Shown: piece by piece, positions 8,191 through 28,340 of the stretch
How the letters are laid out: each line of letters opens with the position of its first letter
How positions within the stretch are numbered: the first letter of the stretch is position 1
Assembly (NCBI GenBank): GCA_024653775.1
Contig: JANLHZ010000127.1
Coordinates: forward strand, 1 to 32,312
DNA length: 32,312 nucleotides
From: Planctomycetota bacterium
GTDB taxonomy: Bacteria; Planctomycetota; UBA8742; JACQVU01; JANLHZ01
Reading direction: 5' to 3'
The notes under the pieces: generated by a model
The model's database searches: none
What the model was told of the DNA's origin: nothing
The model's input: only the letters and a program-made list of their open reading frames with translations
Made by a program: the position numbers and the translations under genes

Positions 8191-9513
8191 ATGAGAATTA
8201 ACGCGCCCAGAAACAACTTCCTTCTGTTCCTCTGGATCATACCGATGCTCGTTATGACGGGGGTGCTTCTAATCGCGAACGGAATCGCATGGACTTTCGG
8301 ATTCACGCCGGCCGGGGTGTGGATCGATCTCTCCGAGTACTCCCAGGCCGCGTTCGCGGCGCTCGGATTCCTGGTCGTCACGAGCGGCATCACCTTCGCC
8401 TACGGGATGCGATGTTACAGACGGGAGTGGGACGCGTACTACGCCCACGTCGACGCGGTGGACGATTTCGCAGAGCGTCACGAAATTGCGAAGAAAGACC
8501 TGAAACGCACGGTGAACGCGGAAATAAAGAAGGGTATCAAGACAGAGGTCGCGGGCGAACTTCAGATTCTCCTCGCGCAAATGAAACGCGGTACGGAAAA
8601 GATGATCGAAAACGCGGCCAGGTGGCTTCAGGGAACGTATCGCGCACAGCTTGAGGAACGGTTCCAGACATCCGCGAAGGTGCTGCGTTACTTTGACGGT
8701 CAGATTCAGTTCCTAAGGCATCAGCTAGGCGTCGTCGAAACGCAAAACAGCGAGGAAATCGCTAACGGCGCTCACTCCATAGGCGAGATTTCAGCGGAGC
8801 TCGAGTATTTCAGGAAGCAGCTCGCAAACGAGGTGTCGGAGTTCCGCGAGGAAAAAAAGAACACCGCGATCTATCTCGAAGTGCTCGCGGGACGTCTGCA
8901 GGACGAAATGAATTCGCTGAAGGGCGCGGTCGTCCCGGCGGAAGTTTCGAGCGGGGACGCGCAGCTACGTCTCGAGGAACTCGCGGACGGACTCCGCGAA
9001 GAACTCGGCTCGCTGCTGAATTCAAGGTTCACGTCCGTCGCGGAACTCGAACGAAAACTCGAACAGCTAAGACCCGACATCGATCTCACCATCGTGGGCA
9101 AGGTTGAATCCGTCGCATCGAAGTTCGCGAGCGAAATGCAGCGCATCGAGGAGCTGACGCAGAGTCTCGAGCAGCGCGTGCAGAAGGCGGAGACGAACAA
9201 GGTTTCGAAAAGGCTCGCGCCCGTCGCGGAATCCGCGACCCAGACCCTCGAAAACGAGAAGAAGATTTTCATGCTCGAAAAGCGGCTCGGGAAGTTCTCC
9301 CGCACGCTTGAGAAAATCGAAGGCAAGCTCACGGAATACGTGTCCATCGTCGAAGGCGAACTCGGCATCGCAAGCGTCTACAAGGAAGTTCAGGGACTCG
9401 ACCGCGGCGACAACAACTTCTCGAAGAAGACCCACGCGTTGAAGCACATTTTCGAACTGAACCTCGCGATCCAGAAACCGACGACCTCGACCTCCTTCGC
9501 CAAAGCGGCATAG
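8191..9513 (+). CDS. two-helix membrane protein with long coiled coil
   Basis: The 440-residue product has two membrane helices at about 10-32 and 50-70, then a long predominantly helical, highly charged region (about 75-400) with heptad-like spacing of Leu/Ile. The C-terminal 40 residues are less regular. I do not recognise a family. The layout resembles anchored coiled-coil organisers rather than enzymes, which is an inference. No Shine-Dalgarno site precedes the ATG. It faces convergently onto the kinase-fold gene across an AT-rich spacer. Confidence 0.8.
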   Translation: MRINAPRNNFLLFLWIIPMLVMTGVLLIANGIAWTFGFTPAGVWIDLSEYSQAAFAALGFLVVTSGITFAYGMRCYRREWDAYYAHVDAVDDFAERHEIAKKDLKRTVNAEIKKGIKTEVAGELQILLAQMKRGTEKMIENAARWLQGTYRAQLEERFQTSAKVLRYFDGQIQFLRHQLGVVETQNSEEIANGAHSIGEISAELEYFRKQLANEVSEFREEKKNTAIYLEVLAGRLQDEMNSLKGAVVPAEVSSGDAQLRLEELADGLREELGSLLNSRFTSVAELERKLEQLRPDIDLTIVGKVESVASKFASEMQRIEELTQSLEQRVQKAETNKVSKRLAPVAESATQTLENEKKIFMLEKRLGKFSRTLEKIEGKLTEYVSIVEGELGIASVYKEVQGLDRGDNNFSKKTHALKHIFELNLAIQKPTTSTSFAKAA

Positions 9514-24671: not shown

Positions 24672-24966
24672 CTCTCTTTTTCGCGGATGGTTCCGCAGGA
24701 TCGATTTTACAGGTTAATACTCACAGTCGCGGGATGATAGCCGTTATTCAAATTACTCCCGGAACGCGAGTACGGCAAAACGTTGTACCGCCAGAGCCAC
24801 CGGAAGTTCGGCGCCGGATACCGTTCTCCGCTACGGGATGAAGGTGACGAAGGCAGATGAGGGTCGCAGCAATTTTTCCTGTTTTGGCCAATTTTTCTGT
24901 TGACTCAAGTTCTGGCTCGTCTTAATCATGGAATAATCCGAGTCACAACCATCTATGGAGAGCAAA
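24672..24966. other. 295-bp divergent intergenic region upstream of secA and the repeat-controlled gene
   Basis: Promoters for both directions must lie here. No gene is visible. On the plus strand TTGACT (24900-24905) is followed after 17 bases by TAATCA, and AATAAT lies at 24932-24937. On the minus strand TAAAAT lies a few tens of bases before secA without a clear -35. Confidence 0.4.
24900..24937 (+). promoter_or_regulatory. possible promoter of repeat-controlled secreted protein
   Basis: TTGACT at 24900-24905 is one base from consensus. Candidate -10 boxes are TAATCA (24923-24928, spacing 17) and AATAAT (24932-24937, which would pair with TTCTGG at 24910-24915, spacing 16). The ribosome site GGAGAG follows at 24957-24962. 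Confidence 0.35.
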
Positions 24967-26932
24967 ATGAGTGATCTGAACGTTCTGTACAAGCACAGTC
25001 AGTCAGTCAGTCAGTCAGTCTGATTCTCGGCTGAAATCCGGGCTTGCCGGATTCATAGCGCTGCTACTGATATTCGGCGTTTCTCAAGCAGCTTTTGCGC
25101 AAACTTCGGATTACAATCTCACTGGATTATGGGTTCTGTCACTTGACCTTCAGGGCGGAACCTGGGAAATAAGCGAATCAAACATGCTCGAAATCGCGCC
25201 TCAGGGGGATACGCCTACTCTCGAGGTCGAGCACACGGGAAACACGCTCACGTTCCTGAACGCTCCCCCGACGATAACCCTCACCGGAACCGTTTCCGGG
25301 AGTGACGTAACGATCTATCAGAATCAGGTCCTTCCCGACGAAGAGACCAGTTCGACCTACGAGGCCACTATCAGGCTCGACAGCGCGACCATCAAGGGCA
25401 AAAACGCTTCTGGAAACCTCATCGTCGAAGGAACCTACACAGGTTTCGGCTACCTCACCTACCAAAGCGGTTCCGATCAATTTGGAAATCCGATCATCGT
25501 GACTGACAACTGCACATGGTTCGGAAACGTAACCGGCTACATCGTCCCGTCCATTGACGTACCGGCGGAAGGGTCGCTGTCATACGATCTTGGTGTGAAG
25601 CGGATAGAAATGTCTGTCGTCGAAAAGGAATCTGAAGAAGCTATGGAGGCTGAATTCGATCAGCTTGTGCTCGACCTCGAAGGAGTGAATGACCCATCGA
25701 TTCGCAAGGAAGAAGGAAAAGAGAGTAAGGAGAACATCCTCGTTATCCGCAAAGATGCAAGACACGGCGTTGAAGAAATCCTCGAACAAGGCAGACAGCG
25801 CTGGCGGGATAGAACTCTACGCGGTCGTCCGGACCAGATTGATCGCGTTGCCTGGACAGGGTTCGTGAATGCCGTCGCATCTCTTTTGAAGGACATACAA
25901 AATGCATGGCTCGAGATAAAAGAAAATATTGACGAAGTTGTGAAAAATCCACCTGAACAACCTGCTCCAGGGAATATTACCTCATTTAAGCCTATACACT
26001 TTACGGTGGGGAATCAAGGCACACATGGATCGCACACTGTTACTGCATCGGGCGGTATTTCGTATATATTACCCAACTCGGCGCAATTTGATTTCGGTGT
26101 GATCATTCTTGATACGGCTTGGGATTTCCATCCCGAGTGTTTACCGTTATCTGTCTACTATGAGGCAGATATGCGGATTTATCGTAGAAACGGCACGTTC
26201 ACAACAGGCAATACTTCTAATGTACACGTAGATAATTGGGTACCACCTGGGACGAATGTAGGCGTAATGACTGATGTCACGCCGCCAGTTCTGGTTACAG
26301 GGATAAATGTTTACATTGACCTGAATGGTTTAGTGATACCACATGATGCCGTTCGTGCAGAGGTTGTTGTTACAATTACAATAGTCGACAAATGTGCGAA
26401 TTTATACCATGCTTTAAATCACTATCCAATTACATTGCCTCGGCTTCCTGATCTATTTCATCCTGATCCCCCAATTACTTCAATAGTTGGCACTGACGAC
26501 TTTGATACAACTGGCGTTACAAGTCCATTTAAAGTATTTGTAACGGGCGAAAGTCTATATAGAGTCCAACTGTATTCTCCTATTGGCGAGGAAGACCCTA
26601 AATGTCGACCGATTACTTTTGATCTAACCATATCGATTCAGGCTGTTTTTTTTGATATACTTGCACCCGGTTATGTAGTAAGAGAAATATTTCACGATGA
26701 GGACGTATCAGCGCAAACGAACAACTTTACATGGGGCACGAGTTTTTCATTTTCAGACGCAGATGTGAAGCAGTGGTATCAAGACTTTTTGGACGATCGA
26801 AGTAATGTAGGAAATTACAAAGTTGAACATGCGGACGAGATTGAGTATATAGTGATAGAATTTAAGCTCGTGGTCTCGTCTGCGTGTGATACGGAAACGT
26901 TTATATATAGATATACTCCAAAAGTTAACTAA
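24967..26932 (+). CDS. secreted protein under tetranucleotide-repeat control (OFF frame in this sequence)
   Basis: GGAGAG (24957-24962) lies 4 bases before ATG 24967. That frame reads into the AGTC repeat and stops at TGA 25021-25023 after 18 codons. From 25022 a different frame is open to 26932. It starts DSRLKSGLAGFIALLLIFGVS and reaches a signal-peptidase site AFA/QTSD at about 25099, with no start codon of its own until ATG 25184, which would discard the signal peptide. Removing one 4-base unit joins the two frames into 653 residues; adding two gives 657. The mature N-terminus is beta-rich and lipocalin-like in feel, a charged linker follows, and the last 320 residues are beta-rich. GC content falls clearly from about 25960. 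No known family. A sequencing error or an old frameshift is the alternative. Confidence 0.75.
24996..25020 (+). repeat. tetranucleotide simple repeat (AGTC)6 within the coding start
   Basis: Six perfect AGTC units run from 24997 to 25020, with the preceding C giving 25 bases of continuous period four. The tract lies ten codons after the ATG at 24967. A change of one unit shifts the reading frame. Such tracts mutate by slipped-strand mispairing. Confidence 0.95.
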
Positions 26933-26948: not shown

Positions 26949-28340
26949 ATGCTTATGAAGAATAAATATTTGATATGTGCCGCATCTCTTTTAGCTTTTA
27001 TTGTCATTGCTATTGCTATGGGTCAAATTGACGGACATTTTCAACTGAAAATGGCAACAGGAAGCGTAGGTGATAAAGGTCGGATGGCTATCGATAATTA
27101 TTTTAGTGCCAAAGAAAAGCAAGATACCGAGTTATATGGAATAGGTGCGAGCGTTATAGAGGAAGCACCGGTAAACGAAGAAGAGATCACATCTGAAGAA
27201 ATACCTCAATGGGAGGATATCCGCCAGTCGATCTATGAGTACCAGCAAATAGAAGGTGGAAGAATAGAGAATTTGCTCAACCTATATCCTGTGATTCGTC
27301 ATTCGTATGAAAGAAAGGTGCTTGAGATCAATTCCAATATCGAAGTAAACCGGATATTTGGCGGTGATGAAAATAATCTTGTTCCTCATAGTATTGATGG
27401 ACAACGGATATTTTGGGCGGATTTTATATTGTCCACAGCGTATTCTGCTTCAGGCTTGACCTACGATTCGGTTGATCCTGAAGTTCTTGTTGCAATAAGG
27501 AATTATGTAGGCATTTCATCTGGAGATGAAATTGAGTACTTGCTGAAACAATTTTTAGAAACTGCTGGAGGCAAAATAGGTTTGACATTTTCCGTGTCCG
27601 AAGTTATCAACATTCTGTCGAGTAGATATTCTTCCTTTTCCTTTGATGAGTTGTATGAGCTTTCTCTGGGCAATCCACTATTAGCCGTGCAGGAAGCAAC
27701 CGCTTCAGCGTTACAGTACGTCGCGGTGTTTAACGACGATGAAATTTTTCGTTGGAGTCAATGGCTTGAGAGAGTTTCTGTAATGGAAGGTCTGAACGAC
27801 TCTGGCCGAAAAAAAGTGGTTGATAGGCTGATAGAGTCCGCGATATTGTCGTGTGGGGCTTCAATTTATCCAACATTGATGAATTTATTCAAAGAAAGTA
27901 TTTTAAAAGAAAGCATTTTAAATGTCGAACCACCACAATTCCCACGCCGATATCTATTTCACCGAAACTGTTTAAGCACCATAAAAAAACTCATTTTTTC
28001 TGATTTCTGGGGTAACGACTATGTAGAACAGGAGGTCGTGAATATACTATCCGATGCCTCGCTCACGGACTTTCATCTAACTATCGTTTCCGAGCTTTCG
28101 CGTTCTGATAGTCTCTCTCTTGAAGATATTGATCGACTTGGAGTAAGGGGAATTGTTCAGCGATTCGCTATGGATGAAAGACATGTGAACGATTCTCGGG
28201 ATTTGTATATGATACTTGGCTTCTATGAACGTTTTGGTCGAGCTTCAGATGAACAATATATTTTTCCATTTAAACAGCGATTTCCTGATTTCGAAAATAA
28301 AATAAATTCGGTCATCGAGGAAATCAGAAGTCGTCCCTGA
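26949..28340 (+). CDS. exported helical-repeat protein of unknown function
   Basis: The 463-residue product opens with a signal anchor or signal peptide (about 5-26, ending near AMGQ). The rest is mostly helical with HEAT-like stretches at about 210-300 and many hydrophobic-charged alternations; no catalytic motif is seen. GAGGAG (26936-26941) lies 7 bases before the ATG, and only 16 bp separate it from the gene upstream, so the two form an operon. Base composition is distinctly AT-rich compared with core genes, matching the 3' half of the upstream gene. A 15-base imperfect tandem duplication encodes KESIL twice near 27890-27920. Expression may depend on the repeat-controlled gene through transcriptional or translational coupling. 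Confidence 0.75.
   Translation: MLMKNKYLICAASLLAFIVIAIAMGQIDGHFQLKMATGSVGDKGRMAIDNYFSAKEKQDTELYGIGASVIEEAPVNEEEITSEEIPQWEDIRQSIYEYQQIEGGRIENLLNLYPVIRHSYERKVLEINSNIEVNRIFGGDENNLVPHSIDGQRIFWADFILSTAYSASGLTYDSVDPEVLVAIRNYVGISSGDEIEYLLKQFLETAGGKIGLTFSVSEVINILSSRYSSFSFDELYELSLGNPLLAVQEATASALQYVAVFNDDEIFRWSQWLERVSVMEGLNDSGRKKVVDRLIESAILSCGASIYPTLMNLFKESILKESILNVEPPQFPRRYLFHRNCLSTIKKLIFSDFWGNDYVEQEVVNILSDASLTDFHLTIVSELSRSDSLSLEDIDRLGVRGIVQRFAMDERHVNDSRDLYMILGFYERFGRASDEQYIFPFKQRFPDFENKINSVIEEIRSRP

Follow-up and report, generated by a model that had tools for sequence, protein, structure and literature searches.

How a protein could be exported from a gene whose start codon is out of frame with its signal peptide is the question raised by one locus in the window, the 32,312-nucleotide stretch of DNA analyzed here. 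The window gene (C257) very probably belongs to a sizeable set of paralogs that encode secreted proteins and would be switched on and off by slipped-strand mispairing at a short repeat.

Architecture of the window gene

The ribosome-binding site, start codon, six AGTC units and stop codon that the initial annotation described at this locus were all exact to the base (Table 1). Translation from the leader ATG gives MSDLNVLYKHSQSVSQSV followed by the stop. The repeat, which in CAGT phase forms a perfect array from 24996 to 25020, lies in the 5′ coding region and has a unit length not divisible by 3. The signal peptide is encoded out of register with the leader, in a long frame that is open from 24980 to the TAA stop (650 codons). 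From base composition, the probability that 636 codons of this frame would lack a stop is ∼4e-16. The hydrophobic core of the signal peptide has a mean Kyte-Doolittle value of 2.75 over 12 residues. Translation thus bore out the claim of a signal peptide and a 600-residue frame displaced from the leader. The long frame was also said to have no usable start upstream of the signal peptide, and before 25184 it indeed has no ATG, GTG or TTG, just CTG and ATA codons. A gene call at 25184 would, as had been pointed out, lose the signal peptide; this codon falls inside the conserved domain. The two parts of the gene become joined at 5 or 8 AGTC units, the loss of one unit or gain of two that had been predicted.

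Table 1. Coordinates of the window gene, its surroundings and repeat tracts of two further families
Feature	Position	Strand	Basis
Shine-Dalgarno-like GGAGAG, 5′ of leader ATG	24957-24962	+	Read from sequence
Leader, 10 conserved codons MSDLNVLYKH, ATG at 24967-24969	24967-24996	+	Translation and paralog leaders
(AGTC)6 simple sequence repeat, proposed slippage site	24997-25020	+	Read from sequence
TGA closing leader frame in assembled state	25021-25023	+	Read from sequence
Signal peptide frame DSRLKSGLAGFIALLLIFGVSQAAFA, likely cleaved after AFA	25022-25099	+	Translation; paralogs have signal peptides at equivalent site
N-terminal secreted domain, conserved in family (G-x-W ... EGTYxGxG ... 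D-x-x-x-W-x-G)	25100-25921	+	Alignment A1 and own-genome search
First conventional start of long frame, within conserved domain	25184-25186	+	Read from sequence
C-terminal part, variable, low GC	25922-26929	+	GC, GC3, blastp
TAA stop of long frame	26930-26932	+	Translation
Downstream gene, 463 aa, N-terminal export/anchor signal	26949-28340	+	tblastn; homologues behind paralogs C291 and C293
G tracts, lipoprotein family	C271:2642-2650; C19:262-271; C6:36259-36268
GT tracts, membrane-anchored family	C258:25939-25962; C258:27356-27375; C308:39353-39370

The tract was not reproduced by chance, with 0 matches in 100 dinucleotide-preserving shuffles when two mismatches were allowed. At least four AGTC units occur at three places only in the 5.4-Mb genome (a 331-contig assembly), namely the window locus and two paralogs. 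Among 392 genomes of this phylum, no more than 8 contain such a tract. These repeat surveys consisted of pattern searches and 310 kb of contig stretches picked around matches.

The N-terminal and C-terminal parts of the long frame differ in composition, with GC contents of 0.53 and 0.41 and GC3 values of 0.57 and 0.33, respectively. The C-terminal part is common in full to C291 and C293 only, with whole-protein identities of 43-45% by blastp. The downstream gene, which is probably co-transcribed with the window gene, is shared by the same three loci and matched no Pfam family.

A paralogous family with clade-specific repeats

Searching the genome with the window long frame gave 12 loci, and an alignment of the N-terminal domain gave 19 credible loci. 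A twentieth match to the domain, on C6, was discounted as a long protein resembling a vWA-type protein. A TCTA pattern search and a G-tract search added C187, C221, C81, C88 and C153; all of these except C187 run off their contigs just past the tract, so that their 5′ ends only are seen. The genome thus holds ∼24 paralogous loci with the N-terminal secreted domain of the window gene. In ∼23 of these a simple repeat separates the start codon from the signal peptide or falls within the signal peptide itself. The unit is AGTC, AC, C, G or TCTA depending on the clade (Table 2), and in all clades except TCTA the tract follows the start codon and precedes the hydrophobic core. On the tree the tract type is clade-specific with six changes, so the repeats were gained or exchanged independently in each clade.

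Table 2. Repeat units and reading state of family members; tract lengths are draft consensus values and may be off by one unit
Group	Members
AGTC clade	C257 (window) 6 units; C293 8; C189 4; C291 and C149 2 full plus partial
AC clade	C170 8 units; C253 9; C33 12; C316 9
C clade	C275 6; C231 8; C41 9; C63 10; C147 without tract
G clade	C216 11; C309, C227 and C153 10; C154 7
TCTA clade, tract inside signal peptide	C45 and C187 4 full units; C221 7; C81 5; C88 8
In frame as assembled	C189, C291, C149, C45, C187, C221
Out of frame with likely ATG	C257, C293, C170, C253, C33, C316, C275, C231, C41, C81, C88
Start uncertain	C216, C309, C154, C227
Probably decayed	C63, C147

Repeat number determines whether one long frame joins a start codon with a ribosome-binding site to the signal peptide, as it does in C189, C291, C149, C187 and C221. 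Paralogs with 8, 4 and 2 full AGTC units carry the repeat at the same position as the window gene; the copies with 8 and 6 units are out of frame and that with 4 is in frame. The predicted product of the in-frame members comprises a leader, a repeat-coded peptide (SQSV from AGTC, YLSI from TCTA), a signal peptide, the conserved domain and a variable C terminus. The leaders MSDLNVLYRR, MGRANVLYKQ and MSDVNVLFKR resemble that of the window gene, and most paralogs likewise have a GGAG motif ahead of the leader ATG. Homologues that start at the position of 25184 without a signal peptide were looked for, and this was not the arrangement found: C189, C291 and C149 read leader, AGTC repeat, signal peptide and domain as one protein. 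For the AC members C170, C33, C316 and C253 and the C members C275, C231 and C41, a nearby tract length would bring an upstream start into frame with the signal peptide, the start in C253 being a TTG or a more distant ATG. In the G-tract members C216 and C154 an in-frame ATG adjoins the tract. No tract length opens the frame of C63, and C147 contains an in-frame stop; these two members are probably decaying.

The TCTA clade provides the strongest evidence in this analysis bearing on the pace of repeat change. C221, C81 and C88 do not differ in the flanks of the tract, 25 nt on the ATG side and at least 71 nt on the other, and have 7, 5 and 8 units, respectively, such that C221 is on and C81 and C88 are off as assembled. 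Their upstream regions differ and they are therefore separate loci. Their contigs stop 71-79 bases past the tract, an ending typical of assemblies that are interrupted by almost identical copies. C187 has the same leader with 4 units and is on; C45, with a diverged leader, also reads on. This variation between otherwise like sequences, which is among paralogs in one genome, suggests that the number of units evolves more quickly than the adjoining sequence.

Relatives of the family beyond this genome were found neither in GTDB contigs by a pattern scan nor in plasmids or viral contigs. The 392 phylum genomes, its own included, gave one weak homologue without a tract, in G001, the only genome of the same order in that sample. 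Pfam, NCBIfam and PDB sequence searches gave no convincing match, and a single-sequence AlphaFold model was unusable (pLDDT 38).

Proposed switch and alternative explanations

The repeat downstream of the start codon, which in the TCTA clade interrupts the signal peptide and elsewhere precedes it, would be the slippage site, at which DNA polymerase would add or remove units. At a joining length the leader would be fused to the signal peptide (ON); at other lengths translation would soon run into a stop (OFF). Because unit length is not divisible by three, roughly a third of tract lengths would be ON. With a separate tract at every locus, any one cell would export a random selection of proteins that differ in their C termini. 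Slippage is presumably reversible and the products are presumably displayed on the surface or outside the cell; the tracts are short (4-12 units) and switching may therefore be slow. The proteins may serve to change the surface or extracellular repertoire, with a possible benefit in evading phage, predators or a host, or in varying the binding repertoire.

The window copy is out of frame as assembled, and C63 and C147 look decayed, so the tract might have broken the window gene permanently, leaving a decaying copy in a family where only the in-frame paralogs matter. We consider this very unlikely. The long frame has kept its 650 open codons, a neighboring tract length restores reading and several clades show a like pattern. 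Furthermore, the N-terminal domain of the window gene has a dN/dS of 0.11-0.14 against its paralogs, and values within the AGTC and AC clades are 0.09-0.23, pairs with out-of-frame copies included. The domain is thus under purifying selection even in out-of-frame copies, which are therefore not pseudogenes. Pairs within the C clade are less constrained in this domain (0.24-0.5). The C-terminal halves, mostly of lower GC, are much less constrained, with pN/pS of 0.37-0.69 and saturated synonymous change. C189 combines an AGTC-type N-terminal part with a C-terminal part that aligns with the AC clade, a hybrid make-up that suggests module exchange.

The sequence itself might mislead, the true tract being in frame and the gene always on; the draft is fragmented and short repeats are error-prone. 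Such an error would, however, have to strike many paralogs with several repeat units alike while the frames elsewhere in the genes stayed intact, and one wrong count would still leave the tract and the variation among paralogs. This explanation is more improbable still. Least credible is programmed recoding, in which the ribosome or RNA polymerase would slip on the tract and yield a fixed share of full-length protein without a change in the DNA. Homopolymeric C and G tracts could in principle permit slippage during transcription or translation. Nevertheless, counts and registers differ among the paralogs, the in-frame paralogs need no slip and, to our knowledge, the tetranucleotides AGTC and TCTA are not slippery sites for either ribosomes or RNA polymerase. 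The phase-variable export put forward in the initial annotation, with the assembled gene OFF, is accordingly the best reading of the in-frame paralogs and their differing counts and units.

Known systems, other repeat-bearing genes and implications

The Hop outer-membrane genes of Helicobacter pylori carry CT repeats in the signal-sequence region. They resemble the present family in having a dinucleotide repeat near the signal peptide and in being paralogous, but they have one main repeat type and no relation to the window family was found. Similar in design are the opa genes of Neisseria, of which gonococci have as many as 11; their leader-peptide region contains CTCTT pentamers, and switching occurs at ∼1e-3 per cell per generation (PMC3960869). 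In both families the paralogs are scattered, every copy carries a separate repeat in the region of the export signal, a conserved core is combined with variable parts, and translation is, or here would be, turned on or off by repeat number. Unlike opa, the present family has five repeat units rather than one and no known host. A test for homology to the Opa outer-membrane barrel gave no Pfam, NCBIfam or convincing PDB match; the window protein is not an Opa member, and the two families are alike in design and unrelated by sequence. AGTC tracts are found in Haemophilus influenzae mod, with more than 30 units (PMC3711429), and just after the start codon of a gene of strain R2846 (PMC2651432), the position seen here. 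However, those loci encode a methyltransferase and a glycosyltransferase-like protein, with longer tracts and no signal peptide after the tract.

Throughout the genome, every AGTC and AC/GT tract and the majority of long G/C tracts lie at the 5′ ends or promoters of secreted-protein genes. A second family, of lipoproteins with leaders MRNWL.VC or MRDWISVC, has G9-10 between the start and the lipobox signal in C19 and C271, both out of frame as assembled; a C6 locus with the same leader runs off its contig. In a third family, three related secreted membrane-anchored proteins have GT9-12 tracts 51-62 bases before the ATG. From their position these tracts are probably in the promoter, where they would alter its spacing, a possible form of transcriptional phase variation. 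The AC clade and the GT-promoter genes explain all 7 sites with at least 7 AC/GT units, and 9 of the 13 sites with at least 9 G or C fall in the window and lipoprotein families. C323 contains heptanucleotide TCTTAAC arrays of 5.3 and 3.9 copies (L185:3333-3369 and 8256-8282).

In other genomes of the phylum most AGTC tracts are away from gene starts. G336 encodes an unrelated 507-residue secreted protein with ATG-TGT-(AGTC)6 directly before the signal peptide, in frame (L202, position 1501). G075 has an AGTC tract of 22 units (L198, position 1501), with more AGTC matches there and no obvious gene start.

Repeat-driven hypervariation has been described earlier from a metagenome (PMC6851277), and a text search of the literature found no paper linking phase variation with Planctomycetota. 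For the present organism Planctomycetota is a tentative placement, based in part on a divergent SecA, which gave just a long branch in a tree; the assembly contains no 16S gene. The mechanism is already known; what appears to be new is the family, its size and its use of five repeat units at almost the same site. We think it rather probable that phase variation has evolved in a whole set of secreted-protein families in this lineage, that the five units of the window family arose independently at nearly one site and that the AGTC-before-signal-peptide design originated a second time, in an unrelated secreted protein elsewhere in the phylum. Such independent origin, if true, would show strong selection for random export switching. 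Standard gene calls will miss both switch and export signal in such families. Most known examples of large phase-variable surface repertoires come from host-adapted pathogens. With a family of about two dozen loci and five repeat units at nearly one site in an uncultured, possibly free-living lineage, it becomes testable whether phage, predators or a host drive switching, and by what routes evolution adds repeat tracts or substitutes one for another.
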